A stretch of 64,000 nt of DNA. It comes from Sutcliffiella horikoshii. GTDB lineage: Bacteria; Bacillota; Bacilli; Bacillales; Bacillaceae_I. The notes beneath the pieces were generated by a model. That model searched no databases and had not been told where the DNA came from. It worked only from the letters and a program-made list of their open reading frames with translations. Below, one piece after another: positions 187 to 22,290 of this stretch (its first letter is position 1; each line of letters begins with the position of its first letter). The stretch lies in NCBI RefSeq assembly GCF_002157855.1, contig NZ_CP020880.1, positions 3,844,001 to 3,908,000 on the forward strand, read 5' to 3'. Both the position numbers and the translations under genes were made by a program.

Positions 187-342
187 TTCTCTTTCCTCCA
201 CTTTAAACTCCATATTAAAAGAAAATTCCACTTCGGTTGAAAAGTCGCTAACTATATAACGAAAAGGAAAAAGGAAAAGTTCACCAAAAAAGAAATTAGG
301 TACCATTGTTTTTATTTCATTGAAACCTCTGCTTCCTAGCCC

Positions 343-402: not shown

Positions 403-410
403 CCTGAACC

Positions 411-857: not shown

Positions 858-945
858 AAGCAATCCCCTCTACTTTTTTTAAGCTTAATTCCAATTATTT
901 CAGAATCTAATAATCTCTACAACATGATATTTTCTTTTGCATTTA

Positions 946-1002
946 AACAAACGAGCGCTGATCCTTGTTTGGATAGCGCCCAATTCCGGAATACGGAATA
1001 AT
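946..1002. repeat. Dispersed hairpin repeat, copy 2
   Basis: The sequence aaacGAGCGCTgATCCttgtttGGATAGCGCCC matches copy 1 at 343-402 in both the stem and the shared aacgagcgct start, and is followed by a similar ggaatacggaata tail. The stem is kept by compensatory differences (GCGCT...AGCGC), which suggests selection on structure rather than chance similarity. Confidence 0.6.
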
Positions 1003-1146
1003 TTCTGCTCCTCCATTATCCTTTAAGAGGTTTATATTTTGAAGTTTTTACTTACCAGTTTTTACAAAAATATAAAAAAATTATCAACCATCATTTTCAT
1101 GCTACATGATACTATATGTTTACAGGAATAATGATAGAAATGTGGT

Positions 1147-2283: not shown

Positions 2284-2351
2284 TATTGCTCTGACATACA
2301 TTCGATATCCTTAAAACAAATAACAAGTTGTTTTGAAAGGATGTTTTATAA

Positions 2352-3635: not shown

Positions 3636-3687
3636 GAATAACTGGAGTCGTAGATTCGAAAGTTTCGGGGAAACCGTGGTGAATAAC

Positions 3688-3766
3688 AATTGAGTAGGAG
3701 GGAGTAAAATACTCCCGTTCTATTACAGCACCGCACAACAAGACTGGTATACGGCGGTTCAGCATA
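3688..3766 (-). mobile_element. 3' remnant (domains V-VI) of a class C group II intron
   Basis: On the minus strand, GAACCGCCGTATACC...GTGCGGTG resembles domain V of bacterial class C introns. It is followed by a domain VI-like hairpin, GGGAGTattttACTCCC, and the end CCTACTCAATT. Class C introns typically end this way and insert just after transcription terminators; here the remnant sits about 50 bp after the MFS stop codon. No matching 5' part or reverse transcriptase is present, so it is a fragment, perhaps broken by the neighbouring intron. Identification is from pattern memory and needs a covariance-model search. Confidence 0.55.
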
Positions 3767-3816
3767 TTAAGCATCTACGCTCTTAAATTTGGAAGGTCTT
3801 ATAAAATCTTATTATA

Positions 3817-6522: not shown

Positions 6523-6719
6523 CAATTATCTGGCCCTTATGTTGAATATGCACAACATCAAATTGCGTATAAATATTAAGGTTTATACAGTTTGGTTTTG
6601 AGAAATGATTTAAAAATATTGATAAACATACTCCCTCTATAAAGAAAGGAATAACTCTGGCTTTCTAGCTTTTTCTTATGATTTCATTAGGATCTATATT
6701 AATTCGACATCAAAGTCAT
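6523..6719. other. AT-rich gap between intron and IS110-associated region
   Basis: No coding potential or strong structure was seen. It is the 5' exon side of the minus-strand intron. It contains neither ssbB sequence nor an obvious Tn7-type TGT end. Confidence 0.4.
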
Positions 6720-7047
6720 GGATGTAAGTTGAAAGTATGGTTATTTTTGGTGCGTTAGAGAAAAAAAGTCCTTAACCGCCTAACCACTCCTATCCAAAAA
6801 GTGGTGGCTAAGTAAAAGTATGGTTGCACTGGTGGATGTCCACATGTCTCATGGAGGTCAACCCTCCCATGTCTCACAGAGTCTATGCTCCAAAATTCCT
6901 TCGTCCAACCTTTCCATGAGGTGGATGTCAGTGATGCTGCCCGACAGGATCTAAGTCCGTAGTATTGTTGTTTTACTGACTAATCCGTGCTTCAAATGTC
7001 TAAATAATTTTCCTAATAAAACTTTATAAAAAACAAACTAAAGATTC
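6720..7047. other. Structured non-coding DNA downstream of IS110 transposase (candidate guide RNA region)
   Basis: About 330 bp without a gene but rich in repeats. The 10-mer ggtggatgtc occurs at 6831 and 6920. The 9-mer catgtctca occurs at 6843 and 6868, flanking a stem ATGGAGG...CCTCC(C)AT at 6851-6870. A further stem CCAC...GTGG lies at 6784-6804. Members of the IS1111 branch of the IS110 family carry their bridge RNA downstream of the transposase, so this is a candidate for such an RNA. Element boundaries are not determined. Confidence 0.4.
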
Positions 7048-8334
7048 CTAAGCTACTTTCTGTAATAGTGCCATATGAGGAATATCCTTCAACATTCTAT
7101 CTTCACTAAATTCACATTGTTTTGTCCCAATCGTAAAAAGAATTCGTATCAGCTTATTACATATGGCTATCAACGATTGCATTTTCTTTAGAGGATTATT
7201 TTTACGTGTTGTAAAATACTCATGTAAAGCTTTAAAAGCAGTGTTCTTAGCAACCAAAGGCATCGCTACTCGGAAGAGGAGAGCCCTTAGTGTCTTCCTG
7301 CCCCTCTTTGTAATCTTCGTTTGCCCTTTGTGCTTTCCAGAGGTATTCTCCTTTAGGCTTAACCCAGCTAACTTGATGATTTGTCGAGGGTGAGAATAGT
7401 AACTTAAGTTCCCTACTTCTGAGAAGAAGCCAGCTACAGTGTCCTTGCCGATTCCTGTAATGGCTAACATTTGTTGAACACCTGGTATTCGTTCAAGGAG
7501 TCCATCAATATCAGATTCTAGTTCTTCGAACTTCTTAGTTATCAACTCATACTTGTCTAGTAAAGTGCGAAGCTCTAATTTAGCCATCCTTGAACCTTCA
7601 CGAATACCAATAGAGTCTTTCGCTACTCGTTTAAGTTCTTGAATTTTACTGAGTCCAACCGCACGCTTTACAGCTTTTCTGAGGTGAATGAGGATCTCTT
7701 GTTCCGAGAGGATCTCTAACTCATGTGGTAATGCATTTAACTTTAATAATTGTAGTGCTGCTTTTCCTTCCCAATCCTTAAACACTGTAAGAAATTCTGG
7801 GAAATATCGATCTAACCAATTATGAATCTGTCCCTGCACAGCTTGTAAGTCAACATATAGGAGATCACGTATTTTCCTTGCCACACGAAGTTCTGCATAA
7901 ACCCCCTGTGGAATATTAGGTTCGGCATATCTTCCATCTTTGACTAGCTGTGCAATAACTCTTGCGTCCTTTACGTCATTTTTGGTTGGAGAATTATCAT
8001 CTAATTCTTTAGATTTCTTCACATGCATAGGATTTACAACGACAAACTTAATCTCCTCTTCTTTAAGAAAATGAGCAAGGTTGAGCCAATAATGCCCTGT
8101 CGGCTCCATTCCTATAATTACCTTTCGCATGCCGTGTTGTTCCATCAATTGCTTTATCCAGCTTAAAAAAAGATCAAAATGTGGTTTCGTATTTTCAAAG
8201 TGACAAGGTGCACCAAACTCTAGTCCTCTAAAGTCTTGAGCACGAGCTACATGCTTGAACTTCGCAATATCTACACCTATAATCAATGTTTCAGAAGTAA
8301 TTTGAGCAATCTTTTCATTTTGGTTATAATTCAT
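7048..8334 (-). CDS. IS110-family transposase (DEDD recombinase)
   Basis: A protein of 428 residues. The N-terminal RuvC-like DEDD domain shows IIGVDIAKFKHVA (first Asp), VVIGMEPTGHYW-type strand (KVIIGMEPTGHYW, Glu) and NDVKDARVIAQL (Asp pair). The C-terminal Transposase_20 domain shows RIPGVQQMLAITGIGKDTVAGF and KLAGLSLKENTSGKHKGQ, with the conserved serine region. IS110 enzymes act as RNA-guided recombinases without conventional inverted repeats. The gene is intact. The structured flanks on both sides are described separately. Confidence 0.93.
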   Translation of the reverse strand: MNYNQNEKIAQITSETLIIGVDIAKFKHVARAQDFRGLEFGAPCHFENTKPHFDLFLSWIKQLMEQHGMRKVIIGMEPTGHYWLNLAHFLKEEEIKFVVVNPMHVKKSKELDDNSPTKNDVKDARVIAQLVKDGRYAEPNIPQGVYAELRVARKIRDLLYVDLQAVQGQIHNWLDRYFPEFLTVFKDWEGKAALQLLKLNALPHELEILSEQEILIHLRKAVKRAVGLSKIQELKRVAKDSIGIREGSRMAKLELRTLLDKYELITKKFEELESDIDGLLERIPGVQQMLAITGIGKDTVAGFFSEVGNLSYYSHPRQIIKLAGLSLKENTSGKHKGQTKITKRGRKTLRALLFRVAMPLVAKNTAFKALHEYFTTRKNNPLKKMQSLIAICNKLIRILFTIGTKQCEFSEDRMLKDIPHMALLQKVA

Positions 8335-8480
8335 ATTGAATGCCTCCTGGTAAATATGTTTTGTCCTTTTCGCTGGCCAGCTTCAGGACACTCATATCAT
8401 ACCAAGAGGTTATTTTATTGTTCAAACCTCATTTTTCTTCATTACAGGAATGCTGCCATAACACACATTATTTAAATGCC
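8335..8480 (-). other. Structured leader upstream of IS110 transposase (alternative bridge-RNA region)
   Basis: In the minus orientation, before the ATG at 8334, the sequence holds TGTCCTgaaGCTGGCCAGCgaaaAGGACA, an outer stem with an inner palindrome. It also holds GAGGTTtgaacaataaaatAACCTC. In the IS110 branch the bridge RNA is encoded between the element's end and the transposase start, so this 145-bp stretch is the other candidate location. A CCAGGAGGCATT ribosome binding site ends it. Confidence 0.4.
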
Positions 8481-8488
8481 AGAAATAG

Positions 8489-10444
8489 CTAAGAAAAATC
8501 TCCCCACTTTTTTCCACATACACGATAATAATAACTAATTGTACCTTCAGATATTCCTATTTGATTTGCAACATCTTTTTTTGTATAACTAATGCCATTT
8601 TGGGTATATAACAAGCGGATATTATTAATTTTTTTTAGTTTTTCATTATATAAAAATTGCTTGTATTTTTCATTCTCTTCTAGAACAACTTTTTTAATCC
8701 AATTAAAAAAGTCAGGTGAATATACCCTTATTGTACTTTGAGATTTTTTTGTCAAATCACATAATTCACTAACAGAAAATTTTTTAGAGAGATGCTTTTC
8801 ACTTATATAATCATTTATTATTTCTTCCATTTTTTTTATTTCCTCTAATTTTTGTTCCTTAATGCCCTCCTCAATTAAAAATACTATTACGTTTTTTTTA
8901 TGCACTTCAGAATTTATTGCTTTATAAATATTAGATTTTTTTATTGGAATATTTTTTTCTTTTAAATAATTGATACTTTCATTAACCTTTTTCTTTAAAA
9001 GCTCAATATCTTTTTTGTTAATGTCAAATTTCGCTTCAAAAATAAGGTACCTTTGAATTTCTCGATCGTAAAAATAATAATAAAATTCTTTGGTAGACCA
9101 ACCGTATAACTTTTGAGATAAAGCTAAAAGTTTATTCATATCCAATGTTTTATATTCACTGATGATTTTTTTGAATTTTTCCAACAAGTTTTTGTCTTCT
9201 TTAATATTTTGGTAATTAGGAGACAGTAAGGATGTTTGTGATAGGTAACCAACCAGGCGATAGTATAATACAGGAGATATACTCATTTCCATTTCTATTT
9301 CTTTTTTTGTTTTACCTTCTTCAATTAATTTCCTTATTAAGTCTACTTTTTTTATCATATTATTTGTATTTTTCCACTCATTTGTTTTTCTTTCTATACC
9401 ATATACCTGATAACAATTATTACAATAGTGTACATTACTATATTTAGAAGTTTTTTTGTAATAAACATTAATTTTTTCTAGGTCTTTTTTGGTTCCGTAT
9501 CCTTTACAGGCACTATTTAAGCAATTCCCATAAGAGAGCCGATTAGATGTTAATAAAGAATCTTTAAAACTATTAGGTACATTTAAATTAAAGAAATCCT
9601 TAAGAGCTAAGTTAATCTTAGGGTGCCTGATCACTTTAAATATGTAAGGTAGGAAAGGTCTTTTTTTTATTCCATTTATAACGCTGGACCTAAAATGATT
9701 TCTTTCAGATTTTGTGAATACTATTGATTTTTTAGGTTGATACAATTCATTCCTTGCTAAAGAAAGGTATAATAATTTCAAACATCCATCTTGTTCCTTA
9801 TTATTAAAGTTTTGGTTTAACTCAATAGTATTGCCGTCTTCACCTAATAAAAAATACCAATCTTTATATTTCCTTGCTTCATTTTCGTCTATTTTTAAAT
9901 TTTCAACTTTTTTCTTGTTATATATTTTCTTTTTACAACTTACACATTTATCTATACTTCCAACTAGAAAGGAAACAGGCGTATTACAATTCATACATCT
10001 AGTTTCTAGTTTTATCTTATGCAAATCACAAAAATTAATCTCTTTAACTTTCCAGATTAACTTATGATATTTCTCCTGATGTAAACAAATAGGGCAGAAT
10101 TTTCGGTTTGTGTTCTCAACTAACTTTAACATCATAAAAAAGAAATAATACTTTCTCTGAATGTTAGGGTCATCACTAAATAATTTTATAGTTGGTTCAA
10201 ATGTATATTTGTTTATTTCATCGTACTCTTTACCAATAGCTCTTCCTAACTCCTTAATATCTATAACTTCATTTGGCATTACATCAATAAGATGGATTCG
10301 TTTTTTCAATACACCTACATACTTTTCATTCCTGTAAAATTTCTTAAATGTGTCAATAAAATCAACTTTATTTATAGTCGAGATCCTTATTAAATAACTA
10401 GTGAGTGATTCTCCATTTTTTATTTTTGGTCTAATTGTAAACAC
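8489..10444 (-). CDS. tniQ: TniQ/TnsD-family target selector 1
   Basis: A protein of 651 residues. The N-terminus MFTIRPKIKNGESLTSYLIR is the typical TniQ opening. Zinc-binding Cys/His sets follow: CPICLHQ, CDLH, CMNC, CVSC (about residues 115-170) and later CLNSAC and CNNC. The C-terminus has a putative helix-turn-helix (KDVANQIGISEGTISYYYR). The length and extra C-terminal domain resemble TnsD, which binds a specific att site and recruits TnsC. GTG start at 10444; last gene of the tnsABC-tniQ set, 71 bp after tnsC. Confidence 0.88.
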   Translation of the reverse strand: MFTIRPKIKNGESLTSYLIRISTINKVDFIDTFKKFYRNEKYVGVLKKRIHLIDVMPNEVIDIKELGRAIGKEYDEINKYTFEPTIKLFSDDPNIQRKYYFFFMMLKLVENTNRKFCPICLHQEKYHKLIWKVKEINFCDLHKIKLETRCMNCNTPVSFLVGSIDKCVSCKKKIYNKKKVENLKIDENEARKYKDWYFLLGEDGNTIELNQNFNNKEQDGCLKLLYLSLARNELYQPKKSIVFTKSERNHFRSSVINGIKKRPFLPYIFKVIRHPKINLALKDFFNLNVPNSFKDSLLTSNRLSYGNCLNSACKGYGTKKDLEKINVYYKKTSKYSNVHYCNNCYQVYGIERKTNEWKNTNNMIKKVDLIRKLIEEGKTKKEIEMEMSISPVLYYRLVGYLSQTSLLSPNYQNIKEDKNLLEKFKKIISEYKTLDMNKLLALSQKLYGWSTKEFYYYFYDREIQRYLIFEAKFDINKKDIELLKKKVNESINYLKEKNIPIKKSNIYKAINSEVHKKNVIVFLIEEGIKEQKLEEIKKMEEIINDYISEKHLSKKFSVSELCDLTKKSQSTIRVYSPDFFNWIKKVVLEENEKYKQFLYNEKLKKINNIRLLYTQNGISYTKKDVANQIGISEGTISYYYRVCGKKWGDFS

Positions 10445-10515
10445 TATCCTATATTTCCTCGTTCAGTCTATATTCGCACCTACACTTGTATATAATTAGA
10501 AGAATGGATTTTTCA

Positions 10516-11397
10516 TTACTTAAAGCTAATAGCTTTTTCAAACGCATCATCAAACATGTCTCCTTGTATAATTTCATATGCTTCATTTAATAAATCAGGC
10601 GTAAAATTAATATGGTCTATTTTTTCTTTTGAATCTTCAAATATTCCCATTAGTCCAAATGCTTCTTGTATTATAGGAATTAAATAACCGATTTTCCCCT
10701 TACTCTGTTCAAATAATAATTGGGGAAAATATGTGCTCTTCTCTCCTAACCCAATCGGACTTGGTGGTTTAATTTGTTCTTCTACTCGTTTTAAGAAATC
10801 GCAGAATTCATCATCACAGCTTTCAAATCTTGTTAAAGTTTTCGGACGGTACCTTGATTTGTATTGTTCATCTAGAGCTCTAAGCGTTTTTGATTCAGGA
10901 GTCCCCATTAAAACTAACGAAATACCTGTCTTATTAGATAGATGCTTAATAGCATCCATTGCTTCGCTGTTATTTATTCTAGATGTAAGTATATTGTTTA
11001 TTTCATCAAAAATTATTAGTTTTACTTTTTGCACTTTTAGTAGATGATGCACCCTTATCTTTAAATCGTTTACTTTTGGATTTGACTCAAGTCTAATAGC
11101 CCCTAATGAATCGATGATAGCATAGTAAAATTCCATTAGAGTAAATGGGTGAGGTACCTCTACATATAGCACTGGCATTATGTCTACCTCTGTTCCTTCT
11201 TCATCTTTATAAAGACTTTTCGGGTATTTTTCTACATAATTTTCTGCCATTATGGTTTTACCAACATTAGAGCTACCAATAATGAATAGATGTCGTGTTT
11301 TCCCGGGTCTCTTAATAAGAGAGTCCATTATTTTATAAATTTCTAACATTTTGGGGTGCTCAACTCTAATATTTAAAACTCTGTTTTTAAATGTCAT
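10516..11397 (-). CDS. tnsC: TnsC/TniB-family AAA+ ATPase
   Basis: A protein of 293 residues. Walker A is GSSNVGKT at residues 41-48 and Walker B is KLIIFDE near residues 126-132, followed by the sensor-type strand ISLVLMGTPE. It should form ATP-dependent filaments on DNA and link the TniQ target selectors to the TnsA/TnsB transposase. It starts 14 bp after the tnsB stop codon, with GGGGATT before the ATG, so tnsB and tnsC are probably cotranscribed. It is shorter than Escherichia coli TnsC and nearer to TniB size. Confidence 0.92.
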   Translation of the reverse strand: MTFKNRVLNIRVEHPKMLEIYKIMDSLIKRPGKTRHLFIIGSSNVGKTIMAENYVEKYPKSLYKDEEGTEVDIMPVLYVEVPHPFTLMEFYYAIIDSLGAIRLESNPKVNDLKIRVHHLLKVQKVKLIIFDEINNILTSRINNSEAMDAIKHLSNKTGISLVLMGTPESKTLRALDEQYKSRYRPKTLTRFESCDDEFCDFLKRVEEQIKPPSPIGLGEKSTYFPQLLFEQSKGKIGYLIPIIQEAFGLMGIFEDSKEKIDHINFTPDLLNEAYEIIQGDMFDDAFEKAISFK

Positions 11398-11411
11398 AAT
11401 TCAATCCCCAT

Positions 11412-13472
11412 TCACACTTCATTTTTCTTATAAACACTTCTAGCTTTTTCAAGTATTTCTTGATAAGAAGGAGTATTCTGATCCTTACTTTGAAGGGAAA
11501 CGTTAATATCTACTTCTAAATTCATTCTTGCTGCAATTTGTCGAGATTTTCTTCCTTTCTTGTACTTTTGTTGAATATCCTTTTCTAACATTGTTTTTGC
11601 AAATATTATTTCTTGTTCTGAGATAATTTGTAGGCGCTTTTGCCTTCCCTCTTCCTTCAATATATTTCTCATTAATTTATATGAAAATTTATTAATCCCT
11701 TTTAATACTTCTGAATCAGGATTAGATGCATATATTTTTATGTATTGAGCAGAGTCAGGAAGTTTCAAGTAAATATAAGAAATATCATCAATATCATATT
11801 TTACTATGTACTTCACCTCTCTTTTATTTATTAAATAAGATAATGAACTATCTCTGTACAATACATTGCCTAACCTTACACCATCTCTAGTATATGGTTT
11901 TAAAGCTTTTGGTAATAAATCTATTTTAAATTCTTCAATATTTTGTTCTTCTATAAAATCTGGAAACCCACTTAATTTTAGGCCCTCATAATATCTAACC
12001 ATAGGTGTATTTGACTCTAAAGGTAAACCTTTATGTTCCTCATAATGGTAAATATCTGTTATAAACCTTGTTAATATTTCATTAATATCATCCAATGTAA
12101 GCATAGCTTCTTTTTCTGCATCGTATTCCCCTAAATCATTAATATTGCTTTTCCTAGTCCCCTTTAACTGGTGAATTAGTTTAGAATTTAAGGTTTTGAA
12201 TAACCTTTCAATAGTTCCTCCATATCTTGGAGTAGCTATAGGACGATATCTAACATTCGACTTAAGAACTTCATTTATTATTCGTTTAGTTTCTGCATTA
12301 TCAAATTCAACACCATTATCCAACACAATGTTTTTGGGTATTCCAAAAGATTCCCACTCTTTTAAAGTTCCGTATCTCCCCCTACTATTTTTAATTAAAA
12401 CTCCCTGTTCTACAGCTTTCCTTACTTTATTAGCAGATGGTGGTTCAAATGATATGTGCATGCACCAAACCATTCTTGTATATAAATCAATACCTAATGT
12501 TACCCACGGTCTTCCAACTACGTTTCCAATATTATCTAATATGTCCAAATCTAATTTTGTATGGTCTATCTCTACTATATGAAATGGATATAATGCTTCT
12601 TCATTTGCATACCCTCTATTAACATCTAGATATTGTTCACTAACTTTCGCACCATATCTAAATGTGTCAGTTAATTTCTTTGGTATTCTATCGAACATCT
12701 TATAGAGTGTAATCTCTTTTAGTGGTTCAAGATTATTTTGTACACACTTTATAGTGATCACATCTATAATCTTTTTTTTGCTCTTTTTATGAAGATTTAG
12801 AAAATCCTTTTCAAACACTTCCTTTATAATAGGAATATATTCACTCTTTAATCTAGTATTTAGTGTATGTAGTATAAGTTCCGGATTTTTAGGATGACAT
12901 ATTTCTATAATTTTATTATCCTCCCGATACTTGTACCCCTCGCCTTCTTTAGATATTAACCCTAACTCACCTTCATTAGGTTTAACTAAGTCCATATCTT
13001 TATATTGGGACAGATATCTTTGTATGCTTCTCTTAGATACACTAAATTCTTTCTCTAATAAAGATAAAATTTGTTCTTGATTTATACTTTCTATTTCTTT
13101 TTCGTCTCCAATTAAATATTTGTAATTTTCTTTAAAATCTACAAGTGAAACCCAATCACCTTGCTTTATTTTTTCTAGTAGCAATAAGGGTTTAATTATT
13201 TTTAGTCGTTTAGAAAGTTTTTCTCTTTTTTTCTCATCTAAATTATCGAGTACTGAAAAATATACTTCTTCTTCTTTATCAATTTTCTTAAGTAAACTTT
13301 CACTAGCTTCAAAAGAGGGGTCAACAATTAAATCATAAAAACTAATTTCAATAGGACTACAATTTCTTTCAGATCTAACAATGCTAATTTTTGGTGGTTC
13401 TATAGAGTAAACTATATACTTTAAACCGCAATAAATGATTGGCGTATTAACTTTTAAAGTAGTAATTTTCAT
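11412..13472 (-). CDS. tnsB: TnsB/TniA-family DDE transposase
   Basis: A protein of 686 residues. An N-terminal helix-turn-helix region (LEKEFSVSKRSIQRYLSQY) precedes the RNase H-like integrase core. Catalytic residues are visible in VEIDHTKLD (Asp, about residue 300), VLDNGVEFDN (Asp, about 382) and GGTIERLFKTLN (Glu, about 419). A Mu-transposase-type C-terminal domain follows. TnsB binds the repeated sites in both transposon ends and performs the 3'-end cutting and joining. Two bases separate it from tnsA, indicating translational coupling. Confidence 0.93.
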   Translation of the reverse strand: MKITTLKVNTPIIYCGLKYIVYSIEPPKISIVRSERNCSPIEISFYDLIVDPSFEASESLLKKIDKEEEVYFSVLDNLDEKKREKLSKRLKIIKPLLLLEKIKQGDWVSLVDFKENYKYLIGDEKEIESINQEQILSLLEKEFSVSKRSIQRYLSQYKDMDLVKPNEGELGLISKEGEGYKYREDNKIIEICHPKNPELILHTLNTRLKSEYIPIIKEVFEKDFLNLHKKSKKKIIDVITIKCVQNNLEPLKEITLYKMFDRIPKKLTDTFRYGAKVSEQYLDVNRGYANEEALYPFHIVEIDHTKLDLDILDNIGNVVGRPWVTLGIDLYTRMVWCMHISFEPPSANKVRKAVEQGVLIKNSRGRYGTLKEWESFGIPKNIVLDNGVEFDNAETKRIINEVLKSNVRYRPIATPRYGGTIERLFKTLNSKLIHQLKGTRKSNINDLGEYDAEKEAMLTLDDINEILTRFITDIYHYEEHKGLPLESNTPMVRYYEGLKLSGFPDFIEEQNIEEFKIDLLPKALKPYTRDGVRLGNVLYRDSSLSYLINKREVKYIVKYDIDDISYIYLKLPDSAQYIKIYASNPDSEVLKGINKFSYKLMRNILKEEGRQKRLQIISEQEIIFAKTMLEKDIQQKYKKGRKSRQIAARMNLEVDINVSLQSKDQNTPSYQEILEKARSVYKKNEV

Positions 13473-13474
13473 AA

Positions 13475-14194
13475 TTATTCCTCCAACGCTAAACCTTTTT
13501 CTAATTTGATTTCATATTTTTCTTTTGACAAAACTGAATGCAATCCGAGTTCAACATTAATATTAGTTCCTAATAAATTATTTGCTAACAAATAATAAAC
13601 TGTTGGCAATATAAATAAATCTCTATACTTATGATTTAATTTTTCACATACTTCTTCAACCGTTAGACTTGTGTGCTTAGCAAATAGTTCAAGAATAGAA
13701 GGTATTATCTCTTTAAAATAACTTCTTTCCTTTAAATGACTATGAAGAAACTTTAAGTTTTTCATTACAGTTTTATCTACAGAAATAATTTCTATAACAC
13801 GATATTCATAGTTGTTTTTTTGCGCATATTTTTCACAATATTTATTGGCAATTTTTTGTTTTGAATCGTTTTGATCAATTTCATATTTAATTTGGTAGAT
13901 TGTAGGCTTTTTATCTAAAGAAGTCCAATAAACTAAAACGTCAGGAACGTGTTCCCAAACCGAAAAGTCCTGCTCATGGTTTTTTACTGGGATATTTATT
14001 TTCATAGGTTGAGGGAAGTACTTCTTTACTTTTGGATTCAGGTCAAGAAAAAAGAAAAAATAACATTCACTTAATGATTCATACTCAATCTCTTTATTCA
14101 TCTTAAAACTGAAGAATGATCCTTTACTGTGAGGATATAATTTGCTACTTTTATTATTCACTTTACGAACAGGTTGGAAGTTCTTAGGTTTCAT
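13475..14194 (-). CDS. tnsA: TnsA-family 5'-end endonuclease
   Basis: A protein of 239 residues with the TnsA restriction-endonuclease-like fold. Candidate catalytic residues are the Glu in SLSECYFFFF (about 43), Asp85 in VPDVLVYW and the QxK pair in IYQIKYE (Gln101, Lys103), which correspond in order to the Glu/Asp/QxK set of Tn7 TnsA. With TnsA present, the element should move by cut-and-paste. First gene of the tnsABC-tniQ set. The divergent second tniQ starts 204 bp away, so the two share a control region. Confidence 0.9.
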   Translation of the reverse strand: MKPKNFQPVRKVNNKSSKLYPHSKGSFFSFKMNKEIEYESLSECYFFFFLDLNPKVKKYFPQPMKINIPVKNHEQDFSVWEHVPDVLVYWTSLDKKPTIYQIKYEIDQNDSKQKIANKYCEKYAQKNNYEYRVIEIISVDKTVMKNLKFLHSHLKERSYFKEIIPSILELFAKHTSLTVEEVCEKLNHKYRDLFILPTVYYLLANNLLGTNINVELGLHSVLSKEKYEIKLEKGLALEE

Positions 14195-14232
14195 TCAATT
14201 ACCCTCCTTGTTTATCTAACATTGGTAAAGTA

Positions 14233-14262
14233 TAGTTTCAGATTATTTAGTTTCAGATTATT
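14233..14262. promoter_or_regulatory. Tandem 15-bp repeat in the tnsA-tniQ2 control region
   Basis: The 15-mer tagtttcagattatt occurs twice with no gap (14233-14247, 14248-14262). It sits between the divergent tnsA and tniQ2 genes. It could be an operator for self-regulation or an internal TnsB-type site. It does not match the TGTCAT motif at the right end. Confidence 0.4.
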
Positions 14263-14398
14263 TCTTATAATAATTTTTTCTAAATTAATAAACAACATGC
14301 CAAATTAATTATTTAGTGATAGTTAATATAAATGGATAAAATTAATTCACTTGTACACACTAAAAAGGATTTTTATCTTTTTTGTTGAAGGTGATGAA

Positions 14399-15823
14399 GT
14401 GGAGAATATTTTCACTATAAGAATAAAACCCAAAAACAATGAGTGCCTTTCAAGTTTTCTTATGAGATTGTGCGACCAAAATAAAGTACATATCATGGAT
14501 TTATTAAAAAGTAACAATAAATTTTATAAGGTTTACAATTTAAGTAGTACTCATCAACTTGATACTAATCCTAAAAGAGTATTTGATATAAAAAAGATTT
14601 CTTTAATTACAGGGGTATTAGAAAGAGACCTTTTAAATTGTTCTTTAAATTCAATATTAAACGTAATGTGTGATAGGGTTCTATTAGAGGAAATCACTCA
14701 TAGTAAAGGATCTTTTTTAAATGGTGTTTACAATATAAAGTTCAGGTATTTCTGTCCAAATTGTTTAGCAGATAACCTTTACTACAAATTGGAGTGGCAA
14801 TTAAAAGATATCACTATTTGCATTAGGCACAATGTCCTACTAACTTCAACTTGTAGTAAATGCGGGCAGCAACAACCTTATACTCATACCAATTTAGCAT
14901 CTGGTCATTGTTTTAATTGTGATAATACTCTTTGTTCTAAATTAAGTACTGAATTAATTTATGATGATTCACTAATTAGAAAAAATGTTTGGCTTAGCCA
15001 ACAATATAAGAATTTCTCAGCCATATTTTCTTCAGAAACCAAATCAAGTGATATTTCAAATATATACAAAGATATTTTAATTAAATTCATTTACCTCTGT
15101 AGTAATAAAGTGGATATATTTAAATCAGAAGATATAAAATTCATTTCTAGAGATTATAAATACAAATTACTTAATTCTTTAAAGGTAACAAAACTAGAAT
15201 CAGTAGATATTTCTATTTCTATTCTGTTCAAGGTTTTATGGGAATGTAAAATTACTGTGGAGAATTTCGTTTCATTAGAAATCCCATCTAGTTTTTCAAA
15301 ATCACTGTTAGATTATTTGCAAAACCTCACTGTCTGTTTGACACCTTGGTGCCAGCATAACAATAGCAATAAAATGTTATTTAAAATAAATAATGTTAAA
15401 TCCAAAACACATTTTAATCTACATATATGCATATGTTGCAGTGTGAAATTTGGAAACAAGAGAGTTGATAAGGTCTGGGAGGAGTATGGGGATATAATTG
15501 AAGTAGGATATGCCTTAATCAGACCCCTAGTAAATGCTGGGTTCTCAATAGTTGATATTTCTCGAAAAACAAGTATTAGTCGCTATAAGGTTGATAAAAT
15601 GGTTTCATATTTAACAAGGTTTAATTTATTTAATGAGGTAATAAATAACGAGTTTACACCTAACTTTATTGATTCCTTTGACTACTCATATATTATGAAA
15701 GTTGCAAGTACAAATGAAAATGAAACAATTAAAAAATGTAAAAAGTATTATAAAATTACTAAGAGAGAAACTTACTATTTTTTTTATAATCCAATTATTC
15801 AAAAGTTAATTTACACAAATTAA
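14399..15823 (+). CDS. tniQ: TniQ-family target selector 2
   Basis: A protein of 474 residues from GTG 14399, with GAAGGTGAT just upstream. An ATG 48 bases earlier is open but lacks a good ribosome site, and the protein from the GTG (MENIFTIRIKPKNNECLSSF) aligns with the start of tniQ1. Zinc motifs CPNC, CIRH, CSKCG and CFNC are present at about residues 115-170. It is shorter than tniQ1 at the C-terminus, so it lacks much of the tniQ1 DNA-binding tail. Two TniQ proteins in one Tn7-like element usually mean two targeting routes. Confidence 0.85.
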   Translation: MENIFTIRIKPKNNECLSSFLMRLCDQNKVHIMDLLKSNNKFYKVYNLSSTHQLDTNPKRVFDIKKISLITGVLERDLLNCSLNSILNVMCDRVLLEEITHSKGSFLNGVYNIKFRYFCPNCLADNLYYKLEWQLKDITICIRHNVLLTSTCSKCGQQQPYTHTNLASGHCFNCDNTLCSKLSTELIYDDSLIRKNVWLSQQYKNFSAIFSSETKSSDISNIYKDILIKFIYLCSNKVDIFKSEDIKFISRDYKYKLLNSLKVTKLESVDISISILFKVLWECKITVENFVSLEIPSSFSKSLLDYLQNLTVCLTPWCQHNNSNKMLFKINNVKSKTHFNLHICICCSVKFGNKRVDKVWEEYGDIIEVGYALIRPLVNAGFSIVDISRKTSISRYKVDKMVSYLTRFNLFNEVINNEFTPNFIDSFDYSYIMKVASTNENETIKKCKKYYKITKRETYYFFYNPIIQKLIYTN

Positions 15824-15873
15824 TTGGTTTTTTAAATCCTGGAAGTTTTAAAGGCAGTATGATTTTTGCATAT

Positions 15874-15930
15874 TAAAAGACCGCTAATTAAAAGTTTTGT
15901 ACTAAACTTTAATTTTACGGTCTTTCCTTT
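15874..15930. terminator. Strong terminator after tniQ2
   Basis: AAAGACCGctAATTAAAAGTTT-tgtact-AAACTTTAATTttaCGGTCTTT forms a long, nearly perfect stem with A-rich and T-rich shoulders. It can act in both directions and closes the tniQ2 unit. Confidence 0.8.
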
Positions 15931-16538
15931 ACTGTTTATTCTATTTAAGTACCCGGTTGTTGATCATAACATTATAAAATTGACCACCAACTTTTTTCCT
16001 TAAATTCATACACAAGATTAACTCAGGTCAGTAGACTAGTTAACGGTATAACTGTATTTAGCACTTACTTTTTATTAACATACAAAACAACATCTTTTAT
16101 AACGAGTTTTTGAATAGCTTAGATAAGAGTTTCCAAGTATCGGCATTAGATATTTTCCTTATCTATTTATAGCTTAAATAGCTTCTTTTAGCGCAGCCCC
16201 ATCTACGCAATCTCCTATAGCATTATATCACGATTTACTCTAAACACTATTTCTCCTTAAAATACGTTTTTTTGCTTTCGTGCCGTACCAGTTTCTATGT
16301 TCTTAACGCACATTGTCGTGTGTAGTGATAGTTTCCATAGATTCTGTTTACATAACGTTTTATTCATGAATATGGTTCTAAAGAAGTGAATGGCGCATTC
16401 AATTGCTCTCACCGAATTGACTTACAATTGTCAAGTATCCAAATCCTGTTAGAAGCTTATCGCAGACAATTAACTTGGCTAATTTGTACTCTGAAAAGTT
16501 TAATTACCAATTATATCTTTTTCATATCAATAAACCTT
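15931..16538. other. Gene-free stretch in the transposon (possible decayed coding DNA)
   Basis: About 600 bp with stops in all frames. Reading the minus strand near 16380-16180 gives short blocks of plausible peptide (for example GDCVDGAALKEAI) broken by stops, which may be a worn-out gene, but no family could be named. No CRISPR-like repeats were found here. Confidence 0.35.
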
Positions 16539-18128
16539 TCAAATAATTTTCCGTCCCTTTGCTAAATCAATAAAAAATTCTTTTAATACACGTTTATGCT
16601 CTGTAAACTTAGATTTATTAGAAAATATTTTCATCAACGCTTCTCGATCATAATAAACTGAAGAAGGAAAGTTAAAATCTTCTAGGATACGTTTTATTTT
16701 TTTGCCGTTATTTCTTTTCTCTAGATATAGTAAAGCATCTTCGGAAAAGCTTGCTGAAGTAATAAACACGGGAATAACGGTTTTACCGGTTCTATTTTGA
16801 ATAATTCTACATGTTTTTTCGAAAAACTTTTTTACAGAGGCCTCATCTTCTTCTGAGCTACCAAGCAGAACTTCAATCCCTTTGTTGTATCCTTTAACCT
16901 CACAAGCAATAATATAATCCTCATCAACTGACACAACAATATCACACTCACACTTTTTATCAGATTGAGTATCTTCATATTTAACTCCTATTCGTGGTTT
17001 ATAGCCGTATTCACTAAAAACAGAAGCTATTAAAAAGTTAAATACATATCCTTTAAGCGAACCAAATTTCCCGTCCTGGCCAGTCTCACTCGCGTTATCC
17101 AAAATTTTGGCTAGAGCTATAGGGTCTACATTTTGGGGATCTACCTCACGAATAGCTTTCAAGGATTCAACCATCTTAGTTCCAAAAACATCTCTAAGCA
17201 TCATTACCATAATTCCTCGAGCTCGTGCTAACTCATAAGCATCAGTTTCAATTGTATCCACGAAACAAATAGGAATGATTTTAAAATTTTTATCTCCTTT
17301 AACTGGACCATAAAGGTTGCTAACACGATTAATAAGACCCGATATATCATGCCTTTTAGTTTTTCTATGTAAAATTGACTCGATAACTACTGGCGAACCT
17401 GCTTTTCCTAATGATGGTTCATATAATTCATCTTTATTATTAGTTCTGTAAAGTCCCCATAGATAACAATAACTAATAGCGTCACAATAAAACCCATTGT
17501 AACCTTGTTCATAATCATCAACATCAGTAATGTAAGAAGAGTTCCATCCTACAAAGTTCATTTTCTCTAGCCAATTCAATAAGTCCTTTGTAAATTGTTG
17601 ATTGAATGACAAATCTTGAACCCTTTTATACAATTCTTTCTGTGATGCATCTACATTAGGAACCCAATCTCTTTTTGCAACTATGACAGGAATTCCATTA
17701 AATTCAATTTTTTCTACTATTCCAAGATTGTAGAGATCATCAAAAATTTCTTTAGCTGTTTTTCTTTCAGATTTCGATGGATCAACTACGCCCGCTGATA
17801 TTTTTCCAAACTCTGACCAAAACAAAAAACCTTGTTCCTCAACTAAGGCTTGATATACCCGTTGTATTGTTACTGCATGGTCTGGAAAAATTTCCTTCAG
17901 TTTACTTTTCAAACTTTGTGAAGGTAAAAAATATAATACTTGATTATGACGAAATTTAACTGGATCAGTGCTATAGAATGCGCCCTGATTTTTCAAACGG
18001 AGGATAATTTGTCTGGCATTATTTGGTTTTATACTACATCTTTCAACCAAATATTTATTTAATTCGCTACCAAGTAAAGGCCCTTTTGATTTTAGCATTT
18101 CAATGCAATCATCCTTATATTTAACCAA
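16539..18128 (-). CDS. wHTH / PD-(D/E)XK nuclease-like cargo protein
   Basis: A protein of 529 residues, not assigned to a named family. The N-terminal ~75 residues look like a winged helix (LLGSELNKYLVERC...NARQIILRLKNQG), with a second helical DNA-binding-like part to about residue 160. The C-terminal third has a restriction-endonuclease-like signature: CECDIVVSVDED followed by IACEVKGYN, i.e. D...ExK. The next strands, VIPVFITSASFSEDALLYL, fit the same fold. A role in defence against foreign DNA is inferred from the nuclease motif and from its place as transposon cargo. ATG 18128; no partner gene within 280 bp. Confidence 0.65.
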   Translation of the reverse strand: MVKYKDDCIEMLKSKGPLLGSELNKYLVERCSIKPNNARQIILRLKNQGAFYSTDPVKFRHNQVLYFLPSQSLKSKLKEIFPDHAVTIQRVYQALVEEQGFLFWSEFGKISAGVVDPSKSERKTAKEIFDDLYNLGIVEKIEFNGIPVIVAKRDWVPNVDASQKELYKRVQDLSFNQQFTKDLLNWLEKMNFVGWNSSYITDVDDYEQGYNGFYCDAISYCYLWGLYRTNNKDELYEPSLGKAGSPVVIESILHRKTKRHDISGLINRVSNLYGPVKGDKNFKIIPICFVDTIETDAYELARARGIMVMMLRDVFGTKMVESLKAIREVDPQNVDPIALAKILDNASETGQDGKFGSLKGYVFNFLIASVFSEYGYKPRIGVKYEDTQSDKKCECDIVVSVDEDYIIACEVKGYNKGIEVLLGSSEEDEASVKKFFEKTCRIIQNRTGKTVIPVFITSASFSEDALLYLEKRNNGKKIKRILEDFNFPSSVYYDREALMKIFSNKSKFTEHKRVLKEFFIDLAKGRKII

Positions 18129-18409
18129 CTATATACATCCTTCCTAAATGTAACACTTTGCTTATTATATTTATTTTATTAAAAAGGACAACCCACCTGA
18201 TTTTTAAGATAGGCTTGATACATAAGGATTTTTTTGTTCAAAAACGTTGTTGTTAATGTAACGCCTTACAGATTAATAAAAATTTTAGTATAGATCAACC
18301 GAATTAAATGCCTTTCATTTTTATACAATAGTGATGAAGATAAGTTAGGTAGCTTATATTGTTTTTATAGAAAGCTGCGGTTTGATACGAAATTAAAAGG
18401 GTATACTCT

Positions 18410-19126
18410 CTATTTTGAATACATTAAATATTCAGCCTTAACATATTCATATTCCTTTGCAAGACTGCTCTCTGCAAGTACAGTTATTGGTCTGCTTTTA
18501 TCTAAAATAGTTCCATAACTTGGTGTAGAAACGTCCCTCCCAAACTTTTCTTCTATAATATTCAGTCGTTCTTGAAACAACTCCTCCATACTTTCACTAA
18601 GTCTTTCTTTTAAGTTTAATGTGAATTTCACAATATAATTGTATATTTCATCTGCATATTCAAATACTTCTTTTTCTGTAGGAATATATCCTTTGTGGAT
18701 AACATTATTTCTAAATGATGTTTTTTTATTAGGAAATGAAGTAGGTACTTCTTTAAACATAGACAAATACATAAAATAGAAAGCCCCTAATTGGCGTTCT
18801 GATTGATTAGAAACAAGCTTCCATGTCTTTTCTACTTCCTCGGCACCAATATCAAAACCATTAAGGATTACCCGTGTAGCATACTCATAAAATCTTTCAA
18901 GTGAAGAAGCTAAGCTTGAAACTGCTTCTCTAGCAAACCCATTATTTAAAGCGAGCATACCTAAATCAAACAATATTTCATATTTTTCATTCCTTATTAA
19001 TTGAATTGAATAATGTCCGTTTTCACATTTAACCTCATATACTCCATCATCAGTTATATCGATTGCTGATTCAATATTTTTTCGACCATTTAAAAAACAT
19101 GTTGTGCATGGAAAATTTAGTTTCAT
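18410..19126 (-). CDS. Unknown protein with HEPN-type RNxxxH motif
   Basis: A protein of 238 residues. The N-terminus holds Cys/His residues that could bind zinc (CTTC near residue 6, CENGH near 34). The middle is all-helical. FRNNVIHKGYIPTEKEV contains R-N-x3-H, the catalytic signature of HEPN ribonucleases, in a typical setting just before a long helix (EYADEIYNYIVKF). HEPN proteins are common in abortive-infection and toxin-antitoxin systems. No obvious antitoxin lies next to it. The start is ATG 19126, with GAAGGTGAATCAC upstream. Confidence 0.6.
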   Translation of the reverse strand: MKLNFPCTTCFLNGRKNIESAIDITDDGVYEVKCENGHYSIQLIRNEKYEILFDLGMLALNNGFAREAVSSLASSLERFYEYATRVILNGFDIGAEEVEKTWKLVSNQSERQLGAFYFMYLSMFKEVPTSFPNKKTSFRNNVIHKGYIPTEKEVFEYADEIYNYIVKFTLNLKERLSESMEELFQERLNIIEEKFGRDVSTPSYGTILDKSRPITVLAESSLAKEYEYVKAEYLMYSK

Positions 19127-19441
19127 TGTGATTCACCTTCTTATCTTATTTTAATTAAATCATCAACCCTGAGATATAAAATTAAGGAATACAGCAAGCT
19201 CATAGCACTGTAAGTCATATGAGCCATAATCATCTCTTTTTATGAAAAGGAAAGGTTATTCATCTTTATTATGTTTACTCTTAAATCTATGTGATACACT
19301 TATTAAGTTTCTACAACAAAAATCATTAGTATTTTTGGGGACCTACTAATTCACTTTTTTCAAATACATAGACAAATAGTTCTTTTTCATAGTTGGATAA
19401 ATCAAATTATCTAGTTACTTGAAATATAACAACGGGATTCT
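19127..19441. other. Gene-free spacer between cargo genes
   Basis: AT-rich with stops in all frames. It is the 5' region of the HEPN-type gene and the 3' region of the membrane-protein gene. No clear hairpin terminator or repeat was seen. Confidence 0.4.
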
Positions 19442-20206
19442 TCAAAAATTATAATATTTCCTACACTTCTTTTTTAGTTCTTCTTTTTTATCTTCACTTA
19501 AGAAATCATATTGAGTTTCAATACATTCCTCTAAGTAAGACTTAAACTCTGTTTTATTAAGAATGTCTTTTTTTAACATACTCAACAATATAGCATCTAA
19601 TCGTAAATCAAAAAATTCTCCGGACTCAAATATGTTTTGATCACGGCTTTCAATGGAATATTTATAGCTTATTTCAAAAATTGCGATACTTGATTTTAAC
19701 AAATGAACAGAGTAAAAAATAATAAAGAACAAACCATAGGATAATACAAATCCCAAAATAATATATATCCAAATTAAGTATACTGGATGGAAGTTTATAG
19801 ATAATACAAAGTAAATTAAAATAAATAATATTATATATCCACCGACAACCGTTCCTAAATGATAAAAGCTGAAAAATATAGACATTAAATTTTCGTATTT
19901 ATTATTATGGTGGAGTTTATCTACAACCTTAGTGTTTACAGTTCCGGTCAATATTGCAAGCCCACTTATCAAGAAACCTAACACACCAATTAACGCAAAG
20001 GATGAATTAAGAACTATATTTTTTGTTGTATCACTTACATAACTTAAATTCGATTCATTTGATGTCAAGAAATAATAAACTATAACAGTAAAAATCATAG
20101 AGAGTAGGAAGGAATAATAAGCTTCAGGTTTATATAAATGAAAAAAAGGATTGTGTCTCAGGTTCGTCCTATTAGAAAATTCACCAAACGATATTTTTTT
20201 ATGCAT
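19442..20206 (-). CDS. Polytopic membrane protein, second gene of a cargo pair
   Basis: A protein of 254 residues from ATG 20206, one base after the TAG stop of the upstream gene; the ribosome site (GAAGGTGAG) lies inside the end of that gene, so the two are translationally coupled. Four hydrophobic segments are visible (YYSFLLSMIFTVIVYYF, ALIGVLGFLISGLAILTG, VVGGYIILFILIYFVL and YIILGFVLSYGLFFIIFY). The C-terminal ~75 residues are charged and probably cytoplasmic. The family is not recognised. The pairing suggests that the soluble partner senses or controls this membrane protein. Confidence 0.65.
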   Translation of the reverse strand: MHKKISFGEFSNRTNLRHNPFFHLYKPEAYYSFLLSMIFTVIVYYFLTSNESNLSYVSDTTKNIVLNSSFALIGVLGFLISGLAILTGTVNTKVVDKLHHNNKYENLMSIFFSFYHLGTVVGGYIILFILIYFVLSINFHPVYLIWIYIILGFVLSYGLFFIIFYSVHLLKSSIAIFEISYKYSIESRDQNIFESGEFFDLRLDAILLSMLKKDILNKTEFKSYLEECIETQYDFLSEDKKEELKKKCRKYYNF

Positions 20207-20207
20207 G

Positions 20208-21161
20208 CTACTCACCTTCATCAAATTTTTCCACTACCATTTTTGTTAAAAATGAAGATATAGCTATTTTCGCCTTTTTAATAAATTTGTTCCCATCTTC
20301 TTTTTCATTATCATATATAGAAACTCTATATGGAGAATCTTGTTCAGAATTAAAATAAAATTTTGTTCCATCCTTATTTACTCCATTAACCTCTATACTC
20401 CCATATCCCCTGGCATATTTTTCATACGCTCTATTCGAATCTAAAACTTGTTTTACAATAGTTGAATTAATATTTATACCTGTTTTGCTTTTCTGATGAA
20501 CTTCAAATACACTTATTTTTTTCTGTATGTTGCCTTCCTCCATTTTAACCACATCATCATCATATAATTTTCTCAAATCTTCATTATTGTTATTAGGCGG
20601 AATGACAGTAGACTTTATTCTTTCTACTTTATAAGCTTGTTTTAAACGTTCTTCAATGGTAAAAGGATCTTTCAGTAAAAATATTTCAAAACCCACCCTC
20701 TCTAAGTAAATGTTCAATAACTCTTGAAATGATTCATTAAATTGCTTATATCCAAACTTGTTCCGCTGACAAAAAGAAATTACTTCTGAATTTAAGTCAA
20801 AATAAAAATATATACTTATTGAGTTATTACTATGAGTAACACTAAGGGACTCTCTTTTTTTATCGTCCCATTCTTCTGTATGTAATGGATATCTCCTAAC
20901 TAATTTTCCAGTAATATAAAAATTATCAGCATCTTTTACTTTTGTTAATTCAGAGAAATTGTAGACTTCACTTAAATCAATGGTCTCTAACTCATTATTG
21001 CTATTAATAAAAGTTCTTTCTTCTAACTTTTTATACTCAGTTTTATTATCAATCTTATTAAAAACTTCGTCCATAATTTCTTGAATTGAAGTTCTTTCAG
21101 CATATACATCAAATATATTTGAATTTACGTTCACTTTTGAGAAATACATCATAAGTGTCAT
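20208..21161 (-). CDS. Unknown soluble protein, first gene of a cargo pair
   Basis: A protein of 317 residues with no signal peptide or membrane segment. ATG 21161 has GGGGGAT upstream. The sequence alternates strands and helices, with a strand-rich middle (SISIYFYFDLNSEVISFC) and a C-terminal strand pair (YGSIEVNGVNKDGTKFYF). No catalytic motif was recognised. It is coupled to the membrane-protein gene downstream. Two-gene sets of a soluble protein plus a small membrane protein are frequent in anti-phage systems, but that role is inference here. Confidence 0.6.
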   Translation of the reverse strand: MTLMMYFSKVNVNSNIFDVYAERTSIQEIMDEVFNKIDNKTEYKKLEERTFINSNNELETIDLSEVYNFSELTKVKDADNFYITGKLVRRYPLHTEEWDDKKRESLSVTHSNNSISIYFYFDLNSEVISFCQRNKFGYKQFNESFQELLNIYLERVGFEIFLLKDPFTIEERLKQAYKVERIKSTVIPPNNNNEDLRKLYDDDVVKMEEGNIQKKISVFEVHQKSKTGININSTIVKQVLDSNRAYEKYARGYGSIEVNGVNKDGTKFYFNSEQDSPYRVSIYDNEKEDGNKFIKKAKIAISSFLTKMVVEKFDEGE

Positions 21162-21274
21162 AAGAATCCCCCAATTTTTTCTTTGTTTTTTATTATGATA
21201 CCATACGCATATGGTAATTTCTTCAATTTTTCAAACTAATTACTAATATTTAAAATTTCTTAGTAATAACGCAA

Positions 21275-21313
21275 AAACTATGCGTTTCTATTATCAATAG
21301 AAGCGCATAGTTT
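21275..21313. terminator. Long perfect-stem hairpin near the transposon right end
   Basis: AAACTATGCGtTTCTATT-atc-AATAGAAgCGCATAGTTT forms an 18-bp stem with one mismatch and A/T flanks. It lies upstream of the cargo pair and so terminates no visible gene of the element. It may insulate the transposon from outside transcription. Confidence 0.65.
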
Positions 21314-21420
21314 AGGACTAGTGAGCATTAAATGGAGTTGAATTAAGGAAACACACTAGAAAATTTAACAAATCATTGTATTTGAATACCTATAAATTTA
21401 TTTTCCAAGAGCTAAAAACA

Positions 21421-21486
21421 ATGTCATATATTATAATACATGTCATTATTAATAATAATTTATGACAGTATTAGATATATCTCACA
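21421..21486. other. Tn7-like right end with repeated TnsB-type motifs
   Basis: The motif ATGTCAT-ta(t) appears at 21421 and 21440, and inverted as TTATGACA at 21460-21467. The segment ends ...ATATATCTCACA at 21486, fitting the 5'-TGT...ACA-3' termini of Tn7 relatives. The next five bases, ccatc (21487-21491), would be the target duplication. The assignment rests on the abrupt end of ssbB similarity at this point. Confidence 0.55.
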
Positions 21487-21554
21487 CCATCACCTGTATA
21501 ACGTAAATCAGGGTCTTTCACCATTCGACCAATCAACACCACTTCATTAATCAC
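21471..21554 (-). pseudogene. ssbB: ssbB (ywpH) 5' fragment, truncated by transposon insertion
   Basis: From GTG 21554 (ribosome site AGGAGGGAGAATC) the frame reads MINEVVLIGRMVKDPDLRYT then GDGVRYI and stops. The first 23 residues match the N-terminus of bacterial single-stranded DNA-binding proteins (VxLIGRLxKDPDLRYT). The rest of the OB fold is missing, and similarity ends exactly where a TGT transposon end begins. The neighbouring divergent ywpF supports identity with the competence-associated ssbB/ywpH of B. subtilis rather than the replicative ssb. The remainder of the gene was not found in the window. Confidence 0.85.
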
Positions 21555-21861
21555 GATTCTCCCTCCTTTTTTCTACAAAATTCGTGTTGCTCCGTTATCA
21601 TAACTGCTTGCTTAAGGAAGGTAAAATGAGTGTTTTCAGGTTTTGTAATGGTTTTTTGGAGTAAAATCGGATTTTGCTCTAAGGGGAAAATCCTGTTTTA
21701 GGGTGGCGGAAAGTTGTCGAAACATGAAATTAGAGATATTGGGGTTTTTTTATGCCTTCAGATTGTGGTAGGTATCTTTCTTTGTGCTTATGTTATAATA
21801 AGACAAAATATTGGTACATGTTCTTGAAAAGAACCGAAAATATACCCGTTGGAGGAAAATC

Positions 21862-22290
21862 ATGAAAACGTTCAGACTTGTTGCAATATCCCTCGTACAT
21901 GGTGAAGAAGTTGAACAACTGGATTTACAAGACGGATTGATTATCAATAGAGAGTACGGAAAAGAAAATTGGTTGATAGAAGCATTGCTGCCTAAGAGTG
22001 AGCCGGAAAAGTACGAAGAGTTTCGCGATAAGGAAGAAATGCTACATGTTCAAGCAACTATTTCTAAACCGACGAATGATCCCGCTTCCTTTGAGGCCGT
22101 CGTCCGCCAAGTGGCAGTGATGGAAGACAAAATGAGCATCCTGTTCGAAGGCGAGCTCTTCCGAAAAAACACCAACTACCACGAAAAACTGCTAGAACGC
22201 CTAGTGAACGAAGGCTACAATGGCGACGAACTAGTGGAAGCCTTCAAAAACAAGGTAAAAGAAAAACCAGTGCTTGAGAAGAGCAAGTGA
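21862..22290 (+). CDS. ywpF: YwpF-like family protein
   Basis: A protein of 142 residues. MKTFRLVAISLV...ENWLIEALLP and the following strand/helix order fit the YwpF-like family of Bacillus; the function is unknown. An upstream in-frame start exists, but ATG 21862 has a strong GGAGGAAAATC site. In B. subtilis ywpF lies near ssbB (ywpH) and ywpE, as here. The last ~150 bp are strongly A/C-rich on the coding strand, up to the adjacent GGGTCTGACCC repeat. Confidence 0.85.
   Translation: MKTFRLVAISLVHGEEVEQLDLQDGLIINREYGKENWLIEALLPKSEPEKYEEFRDKEEMLHVQATISKPTNDPASFEAVVRQVAVMEDKMSILFEGELFRKNTNYHEKLLERLVNEGYNGDELVEAFKNKVKEKPVLEKSK

Follow-up and report, generated by a model that had tools for sequence, protein, structure and literature searches.

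The DNA analysed here (the window) is a stretch of 64,000 nucleotides from Sutcliffiella horikoshii (contig NZ_CP020880.1, positions 3,844,001 to 3,908,000), and it contains the right part of a Tn7-like transposon that ends inside ssbB. Coordinates in the list below are those of the window; coordinates with C1 refer to contig C1 of the host genome (G000). The features of the locus are as follows.

1..21486, minus strand: right part of the Tn7-like transposon, transposition operon on the minus strand (termini, CCATC, repeats at both ends, GC content)
3946..5763, minus strand: reverse transcriptase of a group II intron, within the element (TIGR04416 over cut-off)
7048..8334, minus strand: IS110-family transposase inside the element (PF01548/PF02371)
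8489..10444, minus strand: TniQ1, 651 aa, clade B, TnsD-like, candidate ssb selector, in the operon (PF06527; tree)
10516..11397, minus strand: tnsC, AAA+ ATPase (PF05621 TniB, PF13401)
11412..13472, minus strand: tnsB, DDE transposase (PF09299 just over cut-off; matches TnsB chains in PDB)
13475..14194, minus strand: tnsA, endonuclease (PF08721 over cut-off, PF08722 just under)
14351..15823, plus strand: TniQ2, 490 aa, divergent from tnsA, second candidate selector (PF06527; tree)
16539..18128, minus strand: cargo ORF, 529 aa, family-less (no Pfam, PADLOC or NCBIfam match)
18410..19126, minus strand: cargo ORF whose YozD match is weak and below cut-off; the L062 locus has a 44% relative
19442..20224, minus strand: cargo ORF, no family in Pfam and PADLOC scans
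20208..21161, minus strand: cargo ORF, no family in Pfam and PADLOC scans
21422..21486, minus strand: right end with terminal TGTGAG and repeats of the TGTCAT type, putative TnsB sites whose motif recurs at the left end
21487..21491, no strand: CCATC, duplicated target site of 5 bp, the other copy being immediately left of C1:3838020
21487..21554, minus strand: 5' fragment of ssbB, nt 1-68, with the rest at about C1:3837528-3838019 (minus strand)
21663..21699, minus strand: two exact AAAAN5TTTT boxes, ComK-box-like, upstream of ssbB (21663-21675 and 21687-21699)
21811..22290, plus strand: ywpF, host neighbour of ssbB (PF14183), adjoining it in 8/8 congeners with wide flanks

The ssbB gene starts with GTG at window position 21554 on the minus strand and reads VINEVVLIGRMVKDPDLRYTGDG, after which the frame is broken. 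Its host part comprises 68 nt, from 21554 down to 21487, and the right end of the transposon (TGTGAG...), with TGTCAT-type repeats within it, starts at 21486. A first-pass annotation, made from the window alone, had placed a Tn7-like transposon end inside ssbB, and TnsA/B/C, TniQ, the duplication and both complete flanks were found. Its count of 23 intact codons was right in effect, the host part actually being 22 codons plus 2 nt, with codon 23 encoding Gly by chance. The TGTCAT repeats that it described in the right end are present, and the same motif type occurs at the left end too.

A protein search of the host genome (4.3 Mb, 2 contigs) gave three SSB matches, namely an intact ssbA-type protein (C1:4260124-4260444) and two pieces of SsbB, the N-terminal one in the window and the C-terminal one left of it (C1:3837750-3838022). 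The remainder of ssbB adjoins the element's left end, 5.98 kb outside the window on its left side, where the first-pass annotation expected it, with CCATC at both ends; the rest of the gene is therefore present in the genome and not lost. Junctions were read from C1:3832001-3845000, which gave a whole element of 27,467 bp (C1:3838020-3865486) that reaches 5,981 bp left of the window. Both termini read TGTGAG, and the 5-bp duplication CCATC that flanks them is perfect. At the left end, TGTCATAAA-type repeats occur three times (offsets 20, 86 and 117; one mismatch in one of them), and their spacing is nearly identical in two relatives, L070 and L072; judged from their sequence, the terminal repeats are putative TnsB sites. 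In 2-kb steps the GC content was 27-39% inside the element versus 37-46% in the 18 kb past the right end.

The genes tnsA, tnsB, tnsC and both TniQ genes are open frames, and TnsB has the Mu-type transposase C-terminal domain according to Pfam. The element thus combines a TnsABC core, TniQ-domain proteins, a 5-bp duplication, multi-repeat ends and site- and orientation-specific insertion, by which we class it as Tn7-like. Further cargo included an MFS transporter, a GNAT enzyme, a Lon-type protease domain and a CAAX-type protease, together with several ORFs without convincing family. By eye, the 529-aa cargo protein (16539-18128) has a winged-helix start and a nuclease-like end. The transposon also carries an extra methionyl-tRNA synthetase (L004:8204-9886, minus strand, 560 aa, metG model over cut-off), and a GrpB-family C-terminal fragment lies near its left end (L004:6317-6586, minus strand). 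Weak PADLOC matches linked two cargo ORFs (L004:6962-8014 and L004:10543-11424, both minus strand) to CRISPR-ancillary or CARF/Lon-type models (Csx1/Csm6, 0.0024; CARF-Lon types, 3e-5), the intron reverse transcriptase to RT/Cas1 models and TniQ2 to CAST TniQ models. No Cas effector was found among the family-searched ORFs of the element.

Intact copies of the target were found in relatives. Among 18 genomes of the family, 11 loci besides our own (ten of the same genus, one of another genus) were compared, and SsbB was uninterrupted in 11/11, from residue 1 to at least residue 111 of the 115-residue query, in a search that took in all 137 loci. The open ssbB frame was 181-191 codons long in the 8 loci checked with wider flanks, and in all of these it was bordered by ywpF and the sortase ORF and, at its opposite side, by the same genes, within the limits of the fetched stretch. 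The ywpF neighbour named by the first-pass annotation matched PF14183, and the sortase ORF, with its identity as given there, served as a synteny marker only.

Relatives of the element were searched with TnsB, which matched in 6 of 397 genomes of the order, our own included, at E 1e-30; our TnsB is 62% identical to that of one relative and 43% to those of two others. In G128 and G319 the ends were found de novo, as a terminal repeat plus a duplication (CCGCA and TTTTA, respectively), and both elements lie immediately downstream of glmS, while automated detection gave no convincing pair of ends for G409, G420 and G411. Our own element is not at attTn7, downstream of glmS; it sits in ssbB. A scan of 84,980 species genomes with a TnsB alignment led to 35 loci, including 27 in Bacillota (L054-L080), among which 12 were at glmS, 3 behind a SpoU rRNA methylase gene, 1 in ssbB (L057) and 11 unplaced. 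The glmS set (L054-L056, L058, L059, L061, L064, L066, L068, L070, L071 and L073) has mapped ends for L054, the record of G128, alone. Eight of its assignments were made from glmS and tnsA being co-oriented at a distance of 0.3 to 9 kb, and those of L059, L064 and L070 from the same contig and an end-like sequence behind the glmS stop codon, L059 being the least sure with about 75 kb between. Three Paenibacillus elements (L062, L079 and L080) lie just downstream of the SpoU gene, whose family was assigned by Pfam on one of the three genes, and both of their ends were mapped. The clade-A TniQ proteins of these three form one subclade, and the SpoU site appears as another homing site for elements of this kind.

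Close relatives of TniQ1 were limited to our own copy in the 18 family genomes, and none was found in the genome-contig search. TniQ1 matched in our own genome, G020 and G319 among 397 genomes of the order, and TniQ2 in our own genome and G020 among 299; the Tn7-like stretch of G020, like that of G017, is unplaced. On plasmids TniQ1 gave no match and TniQ2 one weak match, and none of 3,749 plasmid records covered 80% of the TnsB query. Phages gave 5 distant TnsB matches; scans of viral contigs with A1 and with the TnsB of Paenibacillus pectinilyticus revealed no relatives.

The element L057, from Peribacillus glennii V44-8, spans 384-16470 (16.1 kb); its termini read TGTGAGTTATAATTA, and the duplication is GTTAT. 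It splits ssbB at nt 53-57, beside a YwpF-like ORF and 11 bp from our own site, and its TnsB is 50% identical to ours. An SSB search covering the 26 host genomes behind the loci identified split ssb genes in G401 (P. glennii) and G423 (P. pectinilyticus, the genome of L080). In the latter an element starts right behind codon 23 of ssb (insertion at nt 65-69), with TnsA/B/C 32/36/34% identical to ours. This is not the L080 element, which is at the SpoU gene on another contig. The halves of the P. pectinilyticus gene are 100.8 kb apart (L089/L090, G423:C26:1162126-1262932); the insert is probably a transposon with nested insertions, its left-end ORFs being IS-like by eye. Its termini agree at 17/25 positions and its duplication is imperfect (4/5 bases); a 10-mer shared by the insertion ends is weak evidence, as a 9-mer was shared in 314/2,000 shuffles. 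PHROGs matches around this ssb (Gam-like end protection, exonuclease, HNH endonuclease, integrase and DNA methyltransferase) are of phage type, and the target is therefore a prophage-type ssb.

Thus the proposal of the first-pass annotation that ssbB is a target for such elements was borne out by recurrence, with a second ssbB case in P. glennii and the ssb of P. pectinilyticus besides. The insertion positions (nt 64-68 in our own gene, 53-57 in P. glennii and 65-69 in P. pectinilyticus) fall within about 12 bp, and the tnsA side points towards the ssb start in 3/3 insertions, as it points towards the gene at glmS too. All three hosts keep another, intact SSB. When TnsA/B/C, the two TniQ proteins and 12 others (two small ORFs left out) were used as queries, the genes with relatives in the P. 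glennii element and in the 20 kb covered at either end of the P. pectinilyticus insert were those of TnsA/B/C and TniQ only. One could suppose that the element, after loss of a glmS selector, inserted non-specifically into a dispensable ssbB, and the lack of a clade-A TniQ in it would agree with this. However, two more diverged elements occupy the homologous position in the same orientation, where by a rough estimate about 5e-4 insertions within 20 bp of the site would be expected at random among 28 elements. Chance landing is strongly disfavoured by this recurrence and appears very improbable to us; diverged elements at a homologous place in the same orientation mean that the ssb site is not accidental.

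Three further partial SSB genes were considered and rejected as cases of this kind. That of G413 looks frame-shifted, the pieces in G418 (residues 1-78 and 80-110) are near contig ends, and that of G404 is neither a Tn7-like case nor a contig accident, being cut by a group II intron. In G404, a Clostridia MAG behind L060, the 3' end of the intron (Rfam RF00029, 67.7 bits, match at L092:56-139, feature at L092:56-142, G404:C44) directly precedes an ssb piece beginning near residue 17, and the contig starts inside the intron. This case was left out of the Tn7-like ssb count. As an unlike element at the same stretch of ssb, it suggests that there may be more than a single reason for mobile DNA to enter this part of the gene.

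Elements might be directed to ssb by a structural or process cue, such as the state of replication or transcription, in place of sequence reading by TniQ. The intron abutting ssb near codon 17 in that one MAG would fit such a cue, as would the lack of a simple nucleotide rule separating hit from unhit ssb genes, and the TnsE of Tn7 uses replication structure according to the available part of a 2024 review (PMC11406308). Yet the position is constant within about 12 bp, the orientation is fixed, the site is inside coding sequence, and Pfam scans of the ORFs of our element gave no match to TnsE; we regard a cue of this type as improbable.

The TniQ tree was built from a set of 48 ORFs, less 3 that were dropped as under 340 aa. 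A clade-A TniQ was present in 11/11 placed safe-site (glmS/SpoU) elements that have TniQ, and an intact one in 0/3 ssb elements; the fetched stretches of the glmS-located L056, L058, L059, L066 and L071 yielded no TniQ ORF at the threshold applied. The clade-A TniQ is probably the safe-site selector of the relatives, and it is absent from our element. As described in the review cited above, TnsD reads glmS through a DNA-binding domain at its C-terminus, and orientation is under control (PMC11406308). The predicted model of TniQ1 resembles TnsD, residues about 268 to 596 being outside this statement on the fold.

Taken together, a TnsD-like TniQ probably steers this cut-and-paste Tn7-like transposon to the 5' coding end of ssb. 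Having recognised this conserved end, as we propose, the transposon went in some 50-70 bp downstream of the start codon, which its right end (the tnsA side) faces. The insertion duplicated 5 bp, and SsbB was presumably lost through it. We infer that a clade-B TniQ, TniQ1 or TniQ2, and no other factor would select the target and read the 5' end of ssb. Several results count against this explanation. The support of clade B is moderate (93/91), the tree does not group the three ssb elements by their TniQ proteins, and no C-terminal TniQ similarity special to ssb elements was found. Within nt 1-69 no nucleotide separates the three hit ssb genes from three intact ssbA-type genes, so that the avoidance of ssbA is left unexplained. 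The imperfect duplication and the 100.8-kb gap in P. pectinilyticus also count against it, and the explanation draws on three Tn7-like ssb cases, with 11/27 Bacillota relatives unplaced.

The link to competence was analysed from the region upstream of ssbB and from the host genes. The two AAAAN5TTTT boxes, a motif which we take to be the ComK box, lie at -145 and -121 and have at most one mismatch each in 8/8 congeners examined; their start-to-start distance of 24 bp is, as we assume, not among the classical ComK spacings. In the host, one ComEC-domain match lies in a 771-residue open frame, and there are two comK homologues, one in the window at about 44063-44494 (plus strand, PF06338, E 2.8e-34) and one at C1:1255376. 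The boxes, comEC and the two comK genes together make the competence label of our own ssbB plausible, and from its upstream sequence the gene looks ComK-controlled. Upstream of the P. glennii ssbB a ComK-box pair is absent, with one box in 320 bp. The nearest placed relatives lie downstream of glmS, not in competence genes.

The first-pass annotation had taken the insertion for one in a competence gene and for a sign of selection against, or exploitation of, natural transformation. Its competence reading is supported in part, by the ComK-box-like sites and the comK and comEC genes of the host, and is weakened by one of the three targets being a prophage-type ssb; selection against transformation as the reason is unsupported. 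In its stricter form, ssbB would be hit because a disabled SsbB lowers transformation and shields the element from replacement by uninserted DNA, as an intragenomic conflict. Apart from the apparent ComK control of our ssbB and the retention of comEC and two comK genes, this agrees with documented insertions in comM, comK, comFA and comYC (PMC4774983, in the part available), with the same argument made for comM in the accessible text of PMC10293859 and with the finding that chromosomal transformation of pneumococcus depends crucially on SsbB when the DNA concentration is high (PMC3128108). The same abstract also reports that SsbB antagonises plasmid transformation, so that loss of SsbB need not lower all transformation. 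Together with the prophage-type target and the missing box pair in P. glennii, this makes the conflict a rather doubtful cause of the choice of ssbB. Tentatively, and with slightly more confidence, we suggest that ssb could be a dual-use address, in which a single fast-evolving clade-B TnsD-like selector reads ssb 5' ends wherever present. If so, a spare chromosomal ssbB would be a tolerable home that may damp transformation, and the ssb of a phage or mobile element would be a vehicle to new cells; one protein would then serve both classical Tn7 pathways, and a separate clade-A TniQ would serve glmS or SpoU.

The literature was searched for ssb as a Tn7-like target, and no report was found, judged by titles, counts and the beginnings of abstracts. 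In the available texts, 'ssb' is absent from PMC8649781 and PMC11406308 and occurs once in the main text of PMC10293859, about TnsE, where 'competence' is absent. The sites tabled in the available part of the 2024 review are glmS, yhiN, parE, tRNA genes and comM, comM being the tabled site said to be inactivated (PMC11406308). The Tn7-like insertion described here is real and complete, and it occupies a recurrent site of which no description was found in the literature searched. To such sites ssb would add an internal one tied to DNA uptake and, via the phage-type ssb, to mobile elements. TniQ1 or TniQ2 with the ssb 5' end would be a candidate protein-DNA pair for studying how TnsD-like proteins change target, and it raises the question of how an ssb-reading element spares the intact ssbA-type gene, whose 5' end is similar.

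Our element resembles several known systems and differs from each. Like the two-TniQ CASTs (I-B1, I-B2 and I-F3 with the parE site), where one TniQ serves the safe site according to the review text available (PMC11406308), it has two TniQ proteins; unlike them, it shows no Cas effector among its family-searched ORFs, and both of its TniQ proteins are long. With the prophages and elements in comK, comFA, comYC and comM it shares recurrent insertion at orthologous but non-identical places. Those insertions are described with integrases in the part of PMC4774983 available, whereas our element has a DDE transposase and a TniQ selector candidate, and one of the ssb targets is a phage-type gene. Tn6022/AbaR in comM is likewise a Tn7-like element that inactivates a transformation-linked gene internally (PMC10293859, available text), although the gene is another one and Tn6022/AbaR has a short TniQ with TnsF, in contrast to the long, TnsD-like TniQ proteins of 651 and 490 aa found here; no TnsF was recognised among the ORFs of our element, several of whose cargo ORFs are family-less. 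In comparison with Tn7 and the glmS-targeting Tn7-like elements, our insertion is near the 5' end inside the ssb coding sequence, not downstream of glmS, and the clade-A TniQ of the glmS relatives is lacking, but tnsABC with TniQ, the 5-bp duplication, the TGT...ACA ends and the orientation of the right end towards the recognised gene are the same.
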